The notes under the pieces are model-generated. The model ran no database searches. It saw nothing but the letters and a program-made list of their open reading frames with translations, and was not told the origin of the DNA. From Streptomyces sp. 130 (lineage in GTDB: Bacteria; Actinomycetota; Actinomycetes; Streptomycetales; Streptomycetaceae), in NCBI RefSeq assembly GCF_007096885.1, contig NZ_VJNO01000020.1:1-64000 (forward strand): a stretch of DNA of 64,000 nucleotides, given 5' to 3'. A program made the translations under genes and the position numbers. This document shows positions 4,181 to 43,443 of the stretch, piece by piece. Each line of letters starts with the position of its first letter. The first letter of the stretch is position 1.

Positions 4181-4446
4181 GCGTCCGACTCTAGGCGGTG
4201 GGCCCGGGCGGTACGTTCCCGCGTCAACTCGGCGCCCGTGCGGTGCAGGTGAAGCGGGGGCGCGGTGAACGCCCGTACGGGCCTCAGGACTCGGTCGGGG
4301 CACGGTTCGCTCTCGGTCGTCCCACATGCGGGCCGTACCGCCGAACGGCCTTATCCGGCCGCTAACCTTACGTATCCGCCCTGGCCAGGGATCAATTCCC
4401 GCAGTACGGACATTCATCGCACCCAACTCACGCGAAAGGCTCGCCC

Positions 4447-6312
4447 ATGGGCATTCGGAGCTTGCTGCGCAAGGTGTTCGGCCGTGACCGCACGGAACAG
4501 GACGACCCGACGACGGCCACGGTCCCGCCCCAGGGCGAGCACTCGAGTGCCGCGGAGCCGGAGCCGGCGGACGAGGCACCCGTCAGGATCTCGGTGCCCG
4601 CCCCCGCGTCGTCCGACGAGGCCCCGAAGGCGTCGGACGCGGAGGCCAAGGCGTCGGACCTGGTGGCCGCGGCCTTCGACAACCCGTCCACGCCCACGGT
4701 CCCGGCCCAGAGCAAGGGCCCGGACGCGGAGGCCGAAACCCCGAAGCCGCTTGAGGCCGAAACCCCGGAGGCGCCCGAGGCCGAGACCCGGGAGACGCCC
4801 GAACCGCCCGCCGAGGCGGAGACCGCCGCGCGCGTCGAGGAGGCCCCGGAGGTGGAAGCCCCGGAGGCGGAGGCCCCCGAACCGGTGGCGGAGGCCGCCG
4901 CGCCCGTCGCGAAGGCCGCACCCCCGGAGCCGAAGGCGCCCGAACCGCCCGCCGAGGCCGAGGCCCCCGAGCCGGCGGCGGAGACCACCGAGCCCGTCGC
5001 GGAGGCCCCGAAGGTGGCAGCCCCGGAGGCGGAGGCAGAGGCCCCCGAGCCGGTGACGGAGACCGCCGCGCCCGTCGCGGAGGCCGCACCCCCGGAGCCG
5101 GAGGCGCCCGAACCGCCCGCCGAGGCCGAGGCCCCCGCGCCCGTCGCGGAACCGGTGGCACCCGAACCGCCCACCGAGGCCGAGACCCCCGAGCCGGCGG
5201 CGGAGACCACCGCGCCCCTCGCGAAGGCCGCACCCCCGGAGCCGGAGGCGCCCGAACCGCCCGCCGAGGCCGAGGCCCCCGAGCCGGAGGCCGAGGCCCC
5301 CACGCCCGTCGCGGAGGCCGAAGCCCCGGAGCCGGAGGCGCCGGAGGCGCCCGAGGCGCCGGAGGCGCCCGAACCGGCCGTCGAGGCCATCGCGGCGCCC
5401 GAGCCCGTCGTGGCCTCGGAGACGCCCGAGCCCGAGCCGGTCGAGGCGAGCGAGACCCCGCAGCCGGAGCCGGTGGCCGAGCCCGAGCCGGTCGCAGAGA
5501 CCCCGACCCCCGCGGCGGAACCGCAGGAACCCGCCGCACCGGCACCCGTCGCGACCCCCGAGCCGGAGGCCGACGCCCCCGCGCCGATCGTCATCGACAT
5601 GGACCCGGAGCCCGAGGCGGCCCCGGCCGCCCCCGGCAAGCCCGCACTCACCCTTGCCAAGGTCAAGGCGCGGGCGCCCGAGCTGGCGGGCGCGTACAAG
5701 GCGGCGCAGGCCGGGCTGAAGGCGCACGGGCTGACCGGGCTGCGCGCCACCGTCTATCTGGTCCTGGACCGCTCCGGCTCCATGCGCCCGTTCTACAAGG
5801 ACGGCAGCGCCCAGCACCTGGGCGACCGCACGCTCGCGCTCGCCGCGCACCTGGACGAGAGCGCCACCGTGCAGGTCGTGTTCTTCTCGACCGACATCGA
5901 CGGCACCGGCACGGTGGAGCTGGACGGCCACGAGGGCCGGATCGACGCCCTCAACGCGGACCTCGGCCGGCTCGGCCGCACGAACTACCACCGCGCGGTC
6001 GAGGAGGTCGTCGCGCACTACGAGAAGTCCGGGGCCACCGGCCCCGCGCTGGTGGTCTTCCAGACGGACGGGCCGCCGGACGCCCGGCAGGCCGCCCGCC
6101 AGGCGCTCGACGCGGCGGCCCGGCTGCCGCTGTTCTTCCAGTTCGTCGCGTTCGGCGAGCAGGACGCCAAGGGCTTCGACTTCCTGCGGAAGCTGGACAC
6201 CCCGAACACCGGCTTCTTCCACGCCGGCCCCGCCCCCCGCGAGGTGCCGGACACCACGTTCTACCGCGAGCTGCTGGCCGCGCTCCCCGCTTGGGTGGCC
6301 ACGCGTTCCTGA
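4447..6312 (+). CDS. VWA-domain protein with long Pro/Ala/Glu repeat region
   Basis: A 621-residue protein. After a basic start ([15 protein letters not shown]), residues about 35-395 form a low-complexity acidic region of repeated [14 protein letters not shown]-type units. The C-terminal third (from about residue 434) is a von Willebrand A domain like the TerF/TerY group, with the MIDAS motif LDRSGSM and later [10 protein letters not shown]. It lacks a signal peptide, so it is probably cytoplasmic. VWA proteins of this group travel with tellurium-resistance/TerD systems in Streptomyces, but no ter genes lie nearby. The extended acidic arm may act as a spacer or tether. The 3' end overlaps the convergent kinase gene by 52 bases. 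Confidence 0.8.
4800..5560 (+). repeat. degenerate coding repeats (Glu/Ala/Pro units)
   Basis: Imperfect tandem units of roughly 24-75 bases, built on gcggaggcc/gcccgaaccgcccgccgaggc words and encoding [10 protein letters not shown]-like blocks. Long stretches (for example 4909-4971, 5083-5133 and 5227-5280) are almost the same, as expected of a tract that expands and contracts by slippage or unequal recombination. Confidence 0.75.
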
Positions 6313-13332: not shown

Positions 13333-14392
13333 AAGGGCTCTCCTCCGGCGCGGTCCGCCCGCCCTTGCGGAGTTCGCCGATGATGCCGAAGGCCGCCGCG
13401 CAGAGCGGGACCGCGAGCAGCATCCCGAGGATGCCCGCGACGCTCGCGCCCGCCGTCAGGGCGATGAGGATCATCGCGGGGTGCATCTGGACCGTACGGC
13501 TCTGGATCATCGGCTGGAGGATGTGGCCCTCCAGCACCTGGACGGCGAGGACCACACCGAGCGCCCAGAGCGCGATCGCGAATCCCCGGTCCGCGAGGGC
13601 CACCAGCACGGCGACGGCCCCGGAGATGAAGGCGCCGAGGTACGGGATGTAGGCGCCGACGAGCACCAGCGCGCCGAGTCCCACCGCGCCCGGCACCCGC
13701 AGGATCAGCAGCCCGACCGTGATGCAGACGGCGTCGATCAGGGCGATGAGCGTCGTCCCGCGCATGAAGCCCTCGACGGCCTCGAAGGCCCGCCGGCCCA
13801 TCGCCTCGACCATGTCGCCGGTGCCACGCGGGGCGATGGTGTGGGCGAGGTCCGCGGCCCGGTCCGCGTCGCGCAGGAAGAAGAAGGTCAGCAGCAGGGC
13901 CAGGACGCTGGTCGCGACGAGGGAGCCGACGACGCTGATACCGGTGAGGAGCCCGCCCGCAGCCGTCGCGCCGAACTTCTCGACCAGTTTGCGGCCACTG
14001 GTCTCCAGGTCCTTCACGTCGATGTCGTCCGCGACCTGGAAGTGGTCGACCACCCACTGCCCGGCGTCCTTCAGCGACTGGACGATCTGGTCGCCGGTCT
14101 CCACGAGCGCGGCGACGACGATGTAGCCGGCCCCGCCGACCACGGCCAGCAGCACCGCGCAGGTGACCGCGGCGGCCAGCGAGCGGTTCACCCCGTGGGC
14201 GGTCATCCGGCGGTGGACGGGCCCGAGCAGCGCCGTACCGAGCAGGGCGAGCAGCACCGGGGTGACGGCGGTCTTGAGGGTGACGCACAGCCAGACCGCG
14301 ACGGCGGCGACACCGGTGACCAGCAGGACGACACCGCACCAGGCGGCGGTCCGCCGGGCGCCCTCGGGCAGGAGTGGCTTCGGGGTCTGCAC
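13331..14392 (-). CDS. AI-2E family transporter (permease)
   Basis: A 353-residue integral membrane protein of the AI-2E transporter/PerM family. Hydrophobic segments cluster at the N-terminus (about 15-75 and 75-95), then a soluble insertion (about 95-150), then five or six helices ending with VAGILGMLLAVPLCAAAFGI. Family hallmarks include GAYIPYLGAFISG and EGHILQPMI. Members export small molecules or act as Na+/H+ antiporters; the substrate here is unknown. The start is GTG 14392, with GGAAGG very close to it, so the exact start is unsure. Confidence 0.85.
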   Translation of the reverse strand: MQTPKPLLPEGARRTAAWCGVVLLVTGVAAVAVWLCVTLKTAVTPVLLALLGTALLGPVHRRMTAHGVNRSLAAAVTCAVLLAVVGGAGYIVVAALVETGDQIVQSLKDAGQWVVDHFQVADDIDVKDLETSGRKLVEKFGATAAGGLLTGISVVGSLVATSVLALLLTFFFLRDADRAADLAHTIAPRGTGDMVEAMGRRAFEAVEGFMRGTTLIALIDAVCITVGLLILRVPGAVGLGALVLVGAYIPYLGAFISGAVAVLVALADRGFAIALWALGVVLAVQVLEGHILQPMIQSRTVQMHPAMILIALTAGASVAGILGMLLAVPLCAAAFGIIGELRKGGRTAPEESP

Positions 14393-14488
14393 CCTTCCAG
14401 CCGATCACGGCCCGGCAGCGGTGTCCCGCCCGCGCCGCCGTACGAGTGACGGGGCGTCACACGACGGCGGCGCGGGCGGGCGCGCGGG

Positions 14489-15445
14489 TCACATGCCGTG
14501 GACGGCGGGCACGGTGCCGAGGCGGCCGGCCTGGAAGTCCTCGAAGGCCTGCTTCAGTTCGGCCTGGCTGTTCATCACGAACGGCCCGTAGTGCGCCATC
14601 GGCTCGCGGATGGGACGGCCGCCGAGCAGGACGACCTCCAGGTCCGGGGTGTGCCCGTCCTGCTTCTCGTCGGCGCGCACGGTCAGCGAGGAGCCGGCGC
14701 CGAAGACGGCGGTCTGGCCCAGGTGGACCGGGCGGCGCTCGGCCCCGGCGGTGCCGCGCCCGGCGAGCACGTACGCGAGGCCGTTGAAGTCCTCGCGCCA
14801 GGGCAGCGTCACCTCGGCGCCGGGGCGCACGGTGGCGTGGATCATCGTGATCGGGGTGTGCGTGATGCCGGGGCCCTCGTGACCGTCCAGCTCGCCGGCG
14901 ATCACGCGGAGCAGCGCGCCGCCGTCCGGGGAGGCGAGCAGCTGGACCTGGCCGCCGCGGATGTCCTGGTAGCGCGGGGCCATCATCTTGTCGGCCTTCG
15001 GCAGGTTCACCCAGAGCTGGAGGCCGTGGAAGAGGCCGCCGGACATGACCAGGGACTCCGGCGGCGCCTCGATGTGGAGGAGCCCGGACCCGGCGGTCAT
15101 CCACTGGGTGTCGCCGTTGCCGATGGTGCCGCCGCCACCGTGGGAGTCCTGGTGGATGAAGCTGCCGTCGATCAGGTAGGTCACGGTCTCGAAGCCGCGG
15201 TGCGGGTGCCAGGGCGTGCCCTTCGGCTCGCCCGCCGCGTACTCCACCTCACCCATCTGGTCCATCATGATGAACGGGTCGAGGTACTTGTAGTTGATCC
15301 CCGCGAAGGCGCGGCGGACCGGGAAGCCCTCGCCCTCGAAGCCGCTCGGGGCCGTGGTCACGGCGAGCACGGGGCGGGCCGCGGCGTCGCCGGAAGCGGC
15401 CACCTTGGGCAGGGTCAGCGGATTCTCGACGGTCACTGCGGGCAT
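14489..15445 (-). CDS. pirin family protein
   Basis: A 318-residue bicupin. The N-terminal pirin signature is clear (INYKYLDPFIMMDQMGEVEY, then PKGTPWHPHRGFETVTYLID, with metal-binding His), plus WMTAGSGLLHIEAPPE. The C-terminal cupin (pirin_C) contains TVRPGAEVTLPWR. Pirins bind Fe and some act as quercetin dioxygenases or redox sensors; the role here is unproven. ATG 15445 is chosen for GGAGGT at 8-base spacing; the open frame extends 27 codons further without a ribosome site. Confidence 0.93.
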   Translation of the reverse strand: MPAVTVENPLTLPKVAASGDAAARPVLAVTTAPSGFEGEGFPVRRAFAGINYKYLDPFIMMDQMGEVEYAAGEPKGTPWHPHRGFETVTYLIDGSFIHQDSHGGGGTIGNGDTQWMTAGSGLLHIEAPPESLVMSGGLFHGLQLWVNLPKADKMMAPRYQDIRGGQVQLLASPDGGALLRVIAGELDGHEGPGITHTPITMIHATVRPGAEVTLPWREDFNGLAYVLAGRGTAGAERRPVHLGQTAVFGAGSSLTVRADEKQDGHTPDLEVVLLGGRPIREPMAHYGPFVMNSQAELKQAFEDFQAGRLGTVPAVHGM

Positions 15446-37418: not shown

Positions 37419-37507
37419 TCCCGATGTGGTGTTTTAGCGAGGTTTCACCGTCCCACCGACGGGTTTCAGCATCGGGGCCCGCACCTTCAAACGAAGGAGG
37501 AATCCGA

Positions 37508-37681
37508 ATGCCCCCACAACAGGCACGCACCGAGGCGGCCACCGCTGCGGCGGAATGCTTCGACATCCGATCACTGACTGAAGTCATGGCGCGCACGCTC
37601 CCGCAGGCCGGACTGGACCGAATGACCTCGGAGAAGGTCGAGGAAGTCATGGCCGTCGCGGCGCTGACCGCGCACATCTAG
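37508..37681 (+). CDS. 57-residue peptide, first gene of the PP-loop/HisRS cassette
   Basis: A short gene with an excellent ribosome site (GAAGGAGGA, 37490-37498, about 9 bases before ATG 37508). The product has an Ala/Gln/Thr-rich head, one Cys (17), a helical middle (IRSLTEVMARTLPQAGLDR, then SEKVEEVMAVAAL) and ends LTAHI, with its only His next to last. No signal peptide or membrane helix. No family recognised. A strong hairpin follows immediately, then PP-loop and HisRS-like genes in the same direction; this is how many peptide-precursor or carrier-protein operons look, but no modification chemistry is shown. Confidence 0.65.
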   Translation: MPPQQARTEAATAAAECFDIRSLTEVMARTLPQAGLDRMTSEKVEEVMAVAALTAHI

Positions 37682-37687
37682 AAGCAG

Positions 37688-37723
37688 CGGCCCCGTCCCT
37701 GTGCACCCGGCGGGACGGGGCCG
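37688..37723 (+). terminator. hairpin between peptide gene and PP-loop gene
   Basis: A perfect 12-base stem (CGGCCCCGTCCC with GGGACGGGGCCG) around a 12-base loop, 6 bases past the peptide stop and 45 bases before the next start. No U-tract. It may act as a partial terminator or RNA stabiliser, giving more peptide mRNA than enzyme mRNA. Confidence 0.75.
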
Positions 37724-37768
37724 ACTGCGCACAGCCGCCGCGCATATCCGACGACACTGGAGACGCAC

Positions 37769-39013
37769 ATGGTCACGCTCGATCACGTCACGATGCTGTT
37801 CTCGCAAGGCGCCCGGAGCCCGAAATCCCAGGATCTGCTGACACTGGCCGACGTCCTTCTCGCCCACCGGCTTCCCCCCAGCCTGTTCCAGGCATACGAG
37901 GTGCCCGGTGACGGCAGCCTCGAGCCGATTCCCATTTCGGCGACCTTGGCAGAGGTGCAGGACGACCGGCAGGTCATTCTTCAGTGCATCCGCAATACCG
38001 ACATCGACGCGATTGATCCCGGCAGGGTGGAGACCGTGGAACATGGCCGGAATCCGGCCGTTGCGATGTACGACTTTCAGTGGGCCGATGATGCGAAACG
38101 ACCCACTCATCGCGTCCACGCCCTGGATGCCGAGCGGGCACAGGAGATCGTCTTCTCCAGGATCTGCGACTTCCTCACCGACCACGCCGCGACTCCGCCT
38201 CTGGTGGCCGGCATCTCCGGCGGGGGTGACTCCAACACCCTCGTGCAGGGCACCCACCGCTATGTGGCCAAGCACGGTCTGGACCCGTCGGAAGTGGTGT
38301 GCTTCACGCTGACGATGAAGCCGATCTGGCCTGAAGCGGCTACCGAGCGGGCAGCGGCACTCTGCGCGGAGGCAGGCTTCGCACATCGGGTGCTTCACCC
38401 CGACGAGATCGCGATGTTGCTGGGGATGAGCAAAGGCCCGGACGAGCTGTGGCGCGAACTCTCCAGCCGCTACAGTCCGGATCTGGCACATTTCTTCGCC
38501 ACGTTCCTGATCAATCTCGTCGGCCGGGCGCTCTGCGAGGAGATCGGCGGATCTCGGCTGATGGTCGGCTACAACCGCGAGGACGTCGCGGCGGAACTGC
38601 TGTTCTGCCTGATCAATGGCCGCCGTCCCATGCCGTTCCCGGTCCGCCGCACCGGTAGCACTGACGTACTGATGCCCGTATGGGACGTCCCCAAGGGCAT
38701 GCTCGATGCCTGCTACCCGCGCTTCTCGGAGGAAAATTACAGCGAACGGGTGGACTCCTCCGCCGTACGCCGGTCGTCGATCTACTACATGGCCCACGGC
38801 ATCGATGCCCTCGTACCCTCCATGTCGCTGTCGCTGATGACCGGCGTGAAGAAGCTGATGGACCAGTTGAGCGGCTGGGAACAGCTCACGGAGATCGAAG
38901 GGACTCCGCTGATGCACACCGGCTACGGCGACCAGGAGCAAGTGCACGAGCTGCTGTCGACGCTGGCCCGATACTTCCCCAGCTGGCGCCTCGACCGCTC
39001 AACGGCGAAGTAG
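37769..39013 (+). CDS. PP-loop (ATP pyrophosphatase) superfamily protein
   Basis: 414 residues. The ATP-pyrophosphatase signature SGGGDS lies at about residues 150-155 (VAGISGGGDSNTLVQG), with LMVGYNREDVAAELL further on. The first ~100 residues (DLLTLADVLLAHRLPPSLFQ, ATLAEVQDDRQVILQ) look somewhat like a beta-grasp ThiS/MoaD fold, an inference only. PP-loop enzymes adenylate a carbonyl for amidation, thiolation or ligation; it lacks the CxxC zinc knuckles of tRNA thiolases, so amide-forming or ligase chemistry is possible. TGGAGA precedes ATG 37769. Third positions hold more A/T than neighbours, suggesting acquisition. Not a known tilS, guaA or queC. Confidence 0.78.
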   Translation: MVTLDHVTMLFSQGARSPKSQDLLTLADVLLAHRLPPSLFQAYEVPGDGSLEPIPISATLAEVQDDRQVILQCIRNTDIDAIDPGRVETVEHGRNPAVAMYDFQWADDAKRPTHRVHALDAERAQEIVFSRICDFLTDHAATPPLVAGISGGGDSNTLVQGTHRYVAKHGLDPSEVVCFTLTMKPIWPEAATERAAALCAEAGFAHRVLHPDEIAMLLGMSKGPDELWRELSSRYSPDLAHFFATFLINLVGRALCEEIGGSRLMVGYNREDVAAELLFCLINGRRPMPFPVRRTGSTDVLMPVWDVPKGMLDACYPRFSEENYSERVDSSAVRRSSIYYMAHGIDALVPSMSLSLMTGVKKLMDQLSGWEQLTEIEGTPLMHTGYGDQEQVHELLSTLARYFPSWRLDRSTAK

Positions 39014-39059
39014 GCTACGCGCATTCAACCGACCTAGACGCCAACGGAGTACACCGCGC

Positions 39060-40373
39060 ATGGGCAAGGCCGCTCAGCCCCCGTCCGGAACCCGCGACTT
39101 CCTCGCAGATGATCTCCGTCGCCGTAAGCATGCGTTCGACACTCTGGCCGAGATCTTCGAACGCTACGGCTTCGACCCGCTGGAGACTCCGGCGTTCGAG
39201 AACCTTTCGGTGATCACCGGAAAGTACGGAGAGGAGGCCGCCCGTCTGATCTTCAAGATCCTCAAGCGCGGCATCCATGAGTCCAGCGGGCAGGCGGACC
39301 TTGCCCTGCGCTACGACCACACGGTTCCCCTGGCCCGCGTCATCGCGACCCATGGATCGAAGCTGCCGCAGCCCTACAAGCGCTACGCCATCGGCCCGGT
39401 GTGGCGGGCGGACCGCCCGCAGGACGGCCGCTTCCGGGAATTCGTTCAGTGCGACATCGACACGGTCGGCTCCCATTCGCCCCTGGCGGACGCCGAAATC
39501 GTCCTCGCGCTCGCGGACGGCCTCGACGCGCTCGGCGTGGAGGGCTTCACCTTCAACGTCAACTCGCGACGAGCGCTGCACGCGCTGCTGGATGTCTACG
39601 GTGTCGCCCCGCAGGCGGCGACCACCGTGCTGGCCACTCTGGACAAGCTCGACAAGGTGAGCCCGGACGCCGTCGCCAAGGAACTGGCGACCGGCGCGGC
39701 CGGTCTGCCGACGGAGACTGCCGACAGCCTCGTTGCCGACGTCACCGCCGACGACCGCGACGTCATCCGTGAGCGGTTGTCCTCCGCCGAGGGCGGGACA
39801 GCGGGTCTTGCCGAGATCGACACCCTCATCCAACTGGTGACCGATGCCGGCCTCCCGGCCGGCCGGATCGCCTACAGCCCGAGCATGGTCCGTGGGCTGG
39901 ACTACTACACGGGCGTGATCTATGAAGCGACCGCCCCCTCCTACCCGGGCTCCATTTGCGCGGGTGGCCGCTACGACAAACTGGTCGCCACGCTCGGCGG
40001 CCCGGACATGCCCGCGTGCGGCGGTTCCATCGGTGTCGAGCGCATCCTCGCCGTCCAGAGCCACGAGACCGCCACCCCTCGCGGACTGGACGTCGCCGTT
40101 CCCGCACTCGTCGATGAAACCTCCGTGGCAACCCTGGCCGCGCAGCTGCGGCGAGAGGGCCTGCGCACCGGTGTCTTCCTCGGTACGTCGAAGAAGCTGG
40201 CCCGCCAACTGAAGTGGGCGGCCGACCAGCACGCCCGCGTCGTCGCGATCCTGGGACCCGACGAGGAGGCTGCCGGAACCGTCACGGTACGGAACATGAC
40301 GACTGGCGAGCAGACCACCGTGGCCCAATCGGCCGTAGCAGACCATGTGCGCCGGCTGCTGGTGGACCGATAG
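39060..40373 (+). CDS. hisS: histidyl-tRNA synthetase, second divergent copy
   Basis: 437 residues of class II HisRS: GTRDFLADDLRRRKHAF at the start, motif 2 AIGPVWRADRPQDGRFREF, the histidine-binding SMVRGLDYYTGVIYEA, motif 3 ACGGSIGVERILA and a C-terminal anticodon-binding domain (about 345-437). Motif 2 continues VQCDIDTVG, more like eukaryotic/archaeal HisRS (QCDFDIAG) than the usual bacterial HQLGVEVFG. Streptomyces carry a housekeeping hisS elsewhere, so this is probably a paralogue: a resistant copy, or an enzyme supplying His-tRNA or histidyl-adenylate to the neighbouring PP-loop/peptide pathway. 46 bases after the PP-loop gene. Confidence 0.85.
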   Translation: MGKAAQPPSGTRDFLADDLRRRKHAFDTLAEIFERYGFDPLETPAFENLSVITGKYGEEAARLIFKILKRGIHESSGQADLALRYDHTVPLARVIATHGSKLPQPYKRYAIGPVWRADRPQDGRFREFVQCDIDTVGSHSPLADAEIVLALADGLDALGVEGFTFNVNSRRALHALLDVYGVAPQAATTVLATLDKLDKVSPDAVAKELATGAAGLPTETADSLVADVTADDRDVIRERLSSAEGGTAGLAEIDTLIQLVTDAGLPAGRIAYSPSMVRGLDYYTGVIYEATAPSYPGSICAGGRYDKLVATLGGPDMPACGGSIGVERILAVQSHETATPRGLDVAVPALVDETSVATLAAQLRREGLRTGVFLGTSKKLARQLKWAADQHARVVAILGPDEEAAGTVTVRNMTTGEQTTVAQSAVADHVRRLLVDR

Positions 40374-42519: not shown

Positions 42520-43443
42520 CTACAACTCCTTGCGGATTCGCTCCATCAGAGCGATGGAATCGCGGGGAGCGAGTCCGTTCCTGGCGATACGACCGAACGT
42601 GACGTTGTGCCGTTCGGCATCCGTCTCGCTTTCCAGCCACAGCGTAGACGACGTGGTGTCCATGTAGACCACGTCCATGGCACCTGGTTCAGCGAACGAA
42701 ACGACGCTGAATGCGCCGGTCATGCCCGGGTGGGACCCGGCGAGGAACGGAACAATTTGCACGGTGACATTTGGCTCGTTCGCCGCCTCTACCAGGCGCT
42801 CCAACTGCGCGCGCATCACGTCCCGGCCTCCGACCAACTGGCGCAGGGCCCCTTCCGAAACGATCGCCCACAGCGCGAGCGGCTTGTCGTCCACCAATCG
42901 CTCCTGCCGTGCGATCTTTGCCTCGACGAAGCGCTCGATCTCGTCCGGGTCGTCCCAGTCCGCGTTACCCACGGCGAGCGCCCTGGCGTAGTCCCGGGTT
43001 TGAAGCAGTCCGGGCACAAAAGCACCCTGCCAGGTTCTGATCTGGGTCGCGATGTCCTCGAGTGCGACGTACTCGACCAGCGACCGCAGCTCCGGGTACT
43101 GGTTCCACCAGCCCTTGGCCTTGCGGCGCTCCCGGTCCAACCTGGCGACCTCCAGCAACCGGCCGAGCAGCTTCGCGTCCGTAAGGCCGTAGAACTCACA
43201 CAGAGTGCGGATGTCCGGGTCCCTCATCGGCACCCAGCCACGCTCCATCTTGACGATCTTCGAGTTCGTGGCGCTGATGACCTGCGCGGCTTGCTGCTGA
43301 GTTTTGCCCGAAGCGTCCCGCAGGCGCAGCAGCTCGCTACCAAGCCTGCGGCCCAGAACAGTTGACGACCGATTACCTAGCTGAGTCGCTCGATTCACCG
43401 GCTCAGTCTCTCGCGCTGCGCGCACGGACGTCGACCCGATCAC
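42520..43443 (-). CDS. XRE-DUF5753 transcriptional regulator
   Basis: 307 residues: an XRE helix-turn-helix ([37 protein letters not shown]) and a DUF5753 domain (about 110-300; [40 protein letters not shown]). Forms a unit with the downstream DUF397 gene and is divergent from an HATPase anti-sigma-like gene, the classical three-gene Streptomyces arrangement. GTG 43443 is followed by an in-frame GTG 43395 which may be the true start. Its probable operator is the palindrome at 43449-43464. Confidence 0.87.

Follow-up and report, generated by a model that had tools for sequence, protein, structure and literature searches.

In the microcin C (MccA/MccB) system, a short ribosomal peptide is modified at its C-terminus by an ATP-using enzyme, the product hits an aminoacyl-tRNA synthetase (aaRS), and self-immunity genes are present (PMC9239234); the modifying enzyme is ThiF-like and the peptide is in most cases 7 amino acids long (PMC6495379). 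Pearlins are formed on a carrier peptide of about 50 amino acids (PMC9016710), the C-terminus of which is activated in an ATP-dependent manner by LanB-like PEARL enzymes that use aminoacyl-tRNA (PMC9303977). CtaC, the closthioamide thioamide synthetase of the AANH family, is a PP-loop enzyme acting on peptide-like, carrier-protein-bound substrates and possesses the TtcA/TtuA iron-sulphur motif (PMC6772006). Extra aaRS genes are also known from biosynthetic clusters: the alanyl-tRNA synthetase (AlaRS) AcmD of ascamycin was reported to be more resistant to the product of its cluster, and the isoleucyl-tRNA synthetase (IleRS) SbzA of SB-203208 was called a self-resistance protein (PMC12945691). 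Here, a 64,000-nucleotide stretch of DNA from Streptomyces sp. 130 (contig NZ_VJNO01000020.1), called the window in its whole length, was analyzed for a locus encoding a short peptide, a PP-loop protein and a second histidyl-tRNA synthetase (HisRS). These three genes are a real conserved cassette, which is co-inherited in some actinomycetes and probably yields a peptide-derived compound.

A conserved three-gene cassette

The peptide gene, its ribosome binding site, the hairpin behind it, the PP-loop reading frame and the HisRS gene had been reported by an earlier sequence-only reading of the same DNA, and all of them were recovered in place. The three genes lie on the + strand at 37508-40373, and the G+C content of the cassette is lower than that of the window (66.4 vs 72.2%). 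The features of the locus are as follows:

37494-37500, + strand: AAGGAGG ribosome binding site of the peptide gene, read from the sequence
37508-37681, + strand: gene of a 57-amino-acid precursor- or carrier-like peptide ending in ...EEVMAVAALTAHI, with homologues upstream of the PP-loop gene at 16 of 16 close loci
37688-37723 (arms 37688-37699 and 37712-37723), + strand: hairpin with a 12-bp stem in the spacer from the peptide gene to the PP-loop gene, local to this locus
37769-39013, + strand: gene of a 414-amino-acid putative fusion of a ubiquitin-like domain and a PP-loop ATP pyrophosphatase, a putative peptide-activating enzyme
38216-38233, + strand: SGGGDS PP-loop motif, residues 150-155, in which S150, G151, G152, D154 and S155 are invariant (25-sequence alignment)
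39060-40373, + strand: gene of the second HisRS (437 amino acids), of a cassette-specific clade and a possible resistant target

The peptide gene was found just upstream and the HisRS gene just downstream of the PP-loop gene at 16 of 16 non-redundant close loci (the window, L008-L018, L074, L075, L079 and L080, duplicates removed), as the cassette proposed by the sequence-only reading demands. The PP-loop frame was broken at L018 and the HisRS frame at L015, and two decayed cassettes, L084 (510-1491) and L085 (6363-7390), retained pieces of both genes. Among 40 genomes of one genus, presumably Nocardiopsis, cassette-type HisRS occurred in 11 (10 intact, 1 remnant). A PP-loop match was obtained in exactly those 11 genomes, one of them being a joint remnant, with the remaining 29 genomes presumably covered by the PP-loop profile search. 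Further, the PP-loop and HisRS distances were correlated (Mantel r 0.93 for 15 loci; 0 of 2000 permutations), which is what joint descent predicts.

The PP-loop protein was found to be rare. The copy of the window was the sole match among 61 genomes (its own and close relatives). A search of the genus gave matches in 7 of 392 genomes; just two of the seven, the window's own and G226, belonged to the close group. A contig search of genomes yielded 11 loci. At E 0.001 or better, the PP-loop profile matched 28 of 298 genomes in the family of G730 (presumably genus Nocardiopsis), 20 of 394 in the class and 14 of 346 in the phylum, where over half of the class and phylum matches were weak (E ~1e-3 to 1e-7), reflected general PP-loop similarity and were not counted as relatives. 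Additionally, relatives were located on four plasmids, from Paenarthrobacter (36%), Pantoea (26%), Xenorhabdus (26%) and Geobacillus (21%).

Besides the peptide, PP-loop and HisRS genes, no other enzyme recurred across the 8 intact cassette loci compared, and apart from these only regulator and other small genes recurred near some of them. A phage or viral origin was rejected, since one viral-contig scan and one phage search returned no relatives. Likewise, a known defence system was rejected because the three proteins gave no PADLOC model match at E 0.01.

The peptide, the PP-loop enzyme and the HisRS copy

The cassette peptides were 47-57 amino acids long (16 loci). All 16 HisRS-linked peptides ended in A-[LI]-[TC]-A-H-X, where X was I (3), L (3), Y (4) or F (6), and the His next to the C-terminus, remarked on in the sequence-only reading, was kept in 16 of 16. 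The pooled ratio of nonsynonymous to synonymous differences (pN/pS), taken as simple counts over non-independent pairs of 16 sequences, was 0.41 for the last 31 alignment columns and 1.0 for the N-terminal rest. Judged from these sequences, the C-terminal part of the peptide looks constrained, and the peptide frame is a conserved one. As in ribosomally synthesized and post-translationally modified peptides (RiPPs), an encoded precursor with a conserved C-terminal part adjoins a candidate modifying enzyme (16 of 16 loci). The peptide is very probably a substrate or carrier, as had been suggested earlier; it is strongly indicated to be the substrate of the PP-loop enzyme, and the chemistry is located at its C-terminus with moderate confidence.

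Two further peptides of 58-60 amino acids with Cys/Ser-rich ends were observed at L014 (989-1646), and these presumably resemble thiopeptide precursors.

The PP-loop protein matched no Pfam family at E 1, and in NCBIfam only weak similarity to nadE and LarE was recorded. An AlphaFold structure model obtained from a peptide-enzyme read-through had a mean predicted local distance difference test score (pLDDT) of 76. The docking pose of the peptide in this fused model was rejected as not readable (pLDDT 36-64 over the peptide and ~30 over the linker). The PP-loop part of the predicted structure was nearest to the tRNA thiolases TtuA and NcsA (Z 19.4-21.0), and further fold matches were TilS (Z 17.9-18.9), NAD synthetases (Z ~12-14) and LarE (Z ~12). 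A profile of 25 family members matched NcsA with E 1.2e-14. By predicted fold and profile, the PP-loop domain of the enzyme resembles the TtuA/NcsA/TtcA thiolases.

However, the cassette enzyme differs from TtuA, NcsA and TtuB in carrying the PP-loop domain and the probable ubiquitin-like domain on one chain and in being linked to a peptide gene. It also differs in that the Cys-x-x-Cys (CSFC) of NcsA, which we take to be ligands of a [4Fe-4S] cluster, aligned opposite non-Cys positions of the family profile. Further Cys residues of NcsA in this alignment, among which the third cluster ligand may lie, also fell opposite non-Cys positions of the family. NcsA-type iron-sulphur thiolase chemistry was regarded as unlikely. 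Two other Cys residues, 199 and 315, were invariant in a 10-row PP-loop alignment, so that thiol chemistry of another kind may be possible.

When the first 85 residues were modeled by themselves (pLDDT 80), the matches were mostly to ubiquitin-like folds and stayed below the guide value of Z 8; among them were Ras-binding domains, with Z values of at most 7.2, and the sulphur carrier TtuB, with Z 6.1 over 64 residues. The best Foldseek E value was 8.6e-3. These values point to a likely fold class and no more, and the modeled N-terminal domain is likely ubiquitin-like (beta-grasp-like). The free C-terminal Gly-Gly of sulphur carriers was absent, since the domain is N-terminal and continues into the PP-loop domain. 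We infer that the PP-loop enzyme uses ATP to activate a carbonyl or carboxylate.

The cassette HisRS is a full hisS equivalog (NCBIfam hisS, 363.9 bits at a cut-off of 286.75), in which both the catalytic core and the anticodon-binding domain were matched (PF13393 and PF03129). A separate HisRS of the same genome (contig C69) was 29% and 35% identical to it over two matched stretches. The 16 cassette HisRS proteins formed one clade (96/98), far from the host's own HisRS, in a tree that excluded the row Nocardiopsis_hk3 and carried a long-branch warning among the outgroups. The sister of this clade consisted of five Streptomyces HisRS (L141-L145, 58-61% identical to the HisRS of the window) adjoining a protein of ~203 amino acids that had no Pfam match (L141 and L143) and no NCBIfam match (L143).

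Eleven positions of the E. coli HisRS, presumably belonging to the active site, were compared, and 8 of them were identical in five cassette HisRS. The remaining positions 83, 131 and 306 differed from E. coli in the way also seen in three HisRS from outside the cassettes that share this broad type, one of which is a Nocardiopsis housekeeping copy. Ten columns were cassette-specific in a comparison that excluded Nocardiopsis_hk3 and the divergent L148_Noc_b and L146_G135a. A His at residue 87 (E. coli 84), beside two of the listed active-site residues, was present in 16 of 16 cassette HisRS and replaced by Leu or Gly in 17 others compared, and a cassette-specific Met was found at E. coli position 257.

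Other HisRS genes were noticed in clusters of a different content. A Streptomyces cluster (L146:1373-15321) contained a divergent HisRS-like gene (4194-5558) and a second HisRS (14002-15321), together with an S66 LD-carboxypeptidase (MccF belongs to the S66 family), two ATP-grasp proteins, a methyltransferase, a P450 and an MFS protein. In Nocardiopsis (L148:7253-12494, also L149 and L150), two HisRS-like genes flanked a polyprenyl synthase and an unknown 311-amino-acid protein, near WhiB and MerR-like genes.

A likeness of the cassette to microcin C would lie in the short ribosomal peptide, in an ATP-using enzyme acting at its C-terminus and in an aaRS as the target, the last being suggested by the linked HisRS. 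The cassette differs in its putatively fused ubiquitin-like-PP-loop enzyme, which unlike the ThiF-like MccB adenylyltransferase belongs to the PP-loop proteins and matches no Pfam family, and in its much longer peptide. In addition, microcin C is directed against aspartyl-tRNA synthetase (AspRS) and immunity depends on enzymatic cleavage or acetylation of the product, whereas the cassette holds a spare HisRS. Unlike the PEARL systems, it encodes an aaRS, and a LanB-like gene was not among the genes recurring across the cassette loci compared. The iron-sulphur motif of CtaC was not seen in the cassette enzyme. An extra aaRS gene is shared with the clusters of AcmD and SbzA; literature searches aimed at HisRS returned no paper on a HisRS counterpart. 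Neither a HisRS self-resistance gene nor a pairing of a peptide with a PP-loop enzyme was described among the literature matches listed (titles and abstract openings), and the pathway, put forward by the sequence-only reading as a candidate undescribed system, was not found described in the literature searches made.

Possible roles of the second HisRS

It was tentatively proposed that the cassette is a minimal ribosomal-peptide pathway with a HisRS-directed product, the second HisRS being the resistant target. The 57-amino-acid peptide would be recognized through its conserved, predicted helical part (TEVMARTLPQAGLDRMTSEKVEEVM), and the fused enzyme would use ATP to adenylate its C-terminus (...ALTAH-I), which it would then modify. 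A host peptidase would trim the modified peptide. The His-derived end of the product would mimic histidyl-adenylate or otherwise block HisRS, and the second HisRS, a less sensitive target, would sustain the translation of the producer. The tight linkage, the joint loss, the His next to the conserved end and the distinct HisRS are all consistent with a product aimed at HisRS and a second, resistant copy of its target. The Paenarthrobacter plasmid relative (L019), in which the peptide ends in ALTAQV and HisRS is missing within ~8 kb, and the gene content of the wider family, described below, also count in favour. The two parts specific to the HisRS, that the product hits this enzyme and that the second copy gives immunity, are held with weak to moderate confidence.

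Several observations weigh against this proposal. At the distant locus L087, a His lies in the C-terminal part of the peptide (SCAHSVIATG) and no HisRS is nearby; thus, His alone does not predict HisRS. The correlation of Gln with a missing HisRS stands on the one locus L019. No PP-loop gene lies beside the sister HisRS clade (five Streptomyces loci), and no exporter, peptidase or nucleotide-tailoring genes recurred in the 8 intact cassette loci compared. The locus L087, the sister clade and the lack of a recurring exporter call for caution in taking HisRS as the target. Co-occurrence and correlated distances would also be expected from plain joint descent. By a plain count, only 84 and 257 of the ten cassette-specific HisRS columns lie within 2 residues of a listed position. 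The Nocardiopsis cassette and housekeeping HisRS are of one broad type, and a foreign HisRS type is therefore not a general feature of the cassette.

The sequence-only reading had instead assigned to HisRS the supply of activated His. HisRS would then make His-tRNA (or His-AMP), and the PP-loop enzyme, as a counterpart of PEARL, would join the activated C-terminal carboxylate of the peptide to the amino group of the charged His, the peptide being a carrier regenerated after release of a His-derived product. We regard this role as unlikely, but it is a live rival because the closest folds of the enzyme, TtuA, NcsA and TilS, belong to proteins acting on tRNA. It also agrees with the matched anticodon-binding domain kept in the cassette HisRS, with the pearlin logic (PMC9303977), with the similar length of the carrier peptide TglA (50 residues, PMC9016710) and with the supply of Ala-tRNA by the extra AlaRS AcmD (PMC12945691). 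However, His is already encoded next to the peptide C-terminus, no aminoacyl-tRNA-dependent transferase recurred in the 8 intact cassette loci, and HisRS was missing from the stretches fetched around all distant PP-loop relatives (see below). PEARLs are LanB-like, and a dedicated aaRS for them is not mentioned in the parts of the literature consulted. A divergent second aaRS fits a resistant target at least equally well.

Less probable still is a second HisRS mechanistically unconnected with the peptide, namely a general resistance or stress HisRS beside a peptide-modifying pathway with some other target. The sister HisRS clade, adjoining an unrelated protein in its five Streptomyces loci, speaks for such an arrangement, but the linkage at 16 of 16 loci, the joint decay, the co-occurrence in the same genomes and the correlated divergence speak against it. 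The most improbable is an intracellular toxin-antidote or phage-defence unit, in which the modified peptide would shut down the host HisRS on a trigger and the second HisRS would be the antidote: it accords with the patchy distribution, the lower G+C content, the joint decay of PP-loop and HisRS genes, the plasmid-borne relatives and the lack of a recurring exporter, but not with the negative PADLOC, viral-contig and phage searches described above or with the exporters and peptidases in the clusters of some distant relatives.

Distant relatives, neighbouring genes and significance

No HisRS was found at any of 22 distant PP-loop loci (L019-L022, L081-L083 and L086-L100) within the stretch fetched, mostly 5-8 kb per side. 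Another short peptide was adjacent or in the cluster at 20 of these 22 loci; no short peptide with the motif used was found at L091, and none at L089, where only the region just upstream was covered. The peptide ends were ...KFRTTCTDCVPN(Y/F) or KFRTNCSDCVPNL, ...RFRTCCADPRAS(R/K), ...GGSTRVVSG, ...CATDPITSW, and those of L087 and L019 given above, and ...GASCETGAQ was shared by a Pantoea plasmid and a Streptomyces locus. The neighbours that recurred, as identified on representative loci, were an uncharacterised NTP_transf_5 nucleotidyltransferase, an NDK-like protein, phosphodiesterases, M28 and M16 peptidases, FemAB/GNAT-like transferases, a methyltransferase-aminotransferase and an MFS transporter. 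Since HisRS was missing throughout and a short peptide was present at most of these loci, the short peptide together with the PP-loop enzyme appears to constitute an undescribed RiPP-like class. Judging from the distant peptides and their neighbour genes, the HisRS cassette may be the smallest representative of a broad type of pathway based on peptides. By analogy, the gene content of the wider family may be called reminiscent of microcin C operons.

Two groups of these clusters were seen to share a gene content. Clusters with a KFRTTCTDCVPN(Y/F) or KFRTNCSDCVPNL peptide and a PP-loop enzyme were found at L081-L083, L088, L090, L092, L093 and L098-L100, and many of them share NTP_transf_5, peptidase, FemAB-like and MFS genes. 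The Pantoea plasmid (L020:4246-13072) and the Streptomyces locus (L086:6896-11904) have the GASCETGAQ peptide, the PP-loop enzyme, an FAD/NAD(P)-binding protein and an LLM-class oxidoreductase in common.

Two elements that the sequence-only reading had counted as parts of the system were dropped. The 90 nucleotides from the peptide stop codon onward folded with -44 kcal/mol (z -3.4; 1 of 200 shuffles was equally good), but none of the spacers examined at 10 other loci showed the hairpin (6 other spacers were folded), and it was rejected as a conserved attenuator. Similarly, for neither member of the divergent XRE/NUDIX pair was a similar gene found in the 7 other intact cassette loci compared, and the pair was rejected as a member of the unit. 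The DUF5919 match of the XRE protein was below the Pfam cut-off (18.5 vs 23.5 bits). No tRNA or Rfam elements were detected in the window at the thresholds used, and a scan for promoter and terminator consensus sequences gave no match and was uninformative here.

A different regulator gene of the window showed some recurrence:

42520-43443, - strand: XRE-DUF5753 regulator gene, a possible regulator (PF19054 match, C40:42538-43074)

With the window's own regulator as the query, 9 of 18 cassette loci (this locus included; 2 of the 18 are remnants and 16 intact) had an XRE-DUF5753 gene no more than 5.5 kb away, where 0.54 hits would be expected. Such a gene was likewise near 4 of 5 sister HisRS loci, against an expectation of 0.17; the 17 distant loci had none, against 0.57. 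The expectations were derived from 22 matches in the 7.1-Mb genome of the window alone. Looser clustering also places regulators beside L080 and L085, outside this count. Since the loci are not all independent, those of Nocardiopsis in particular, the recurrence is only a hint that the XRE-DUF5753 gene may be a regulator of the cassette. XRE-DUF397 pairs influence antibiotic production in S. coelicolor (PMC10364602).

Taken in its widest form, the proposal would be that short peptides and the fused ubiquitin-like-PP-loop enzyme, apparently a TtuB-TtuA-like fusion lacking the CxxC of NcsA, represent a new ribosomal-peptide class in Actinomycetota, Gammaproteobacteria and Bacillota, and that the branch described here produces a HisRS inhibitor, the first natural one, alongside a resistant HisRS of its own; as a whole, this is doubtful. 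To our knowledge, no natural HisRS inhibitor is known, and the literature searches returned no paper on one. If the enzyme modifies the peptide, it would define a peptide-modifying family unnamed in Pfam and NCBIfam as searched, and such a family would offer at least five kinds of cognate peptide end. Should the second HisRS act as a resistant target, the cassette would point to an inhibitor of histidyl-tRNA synthetase.

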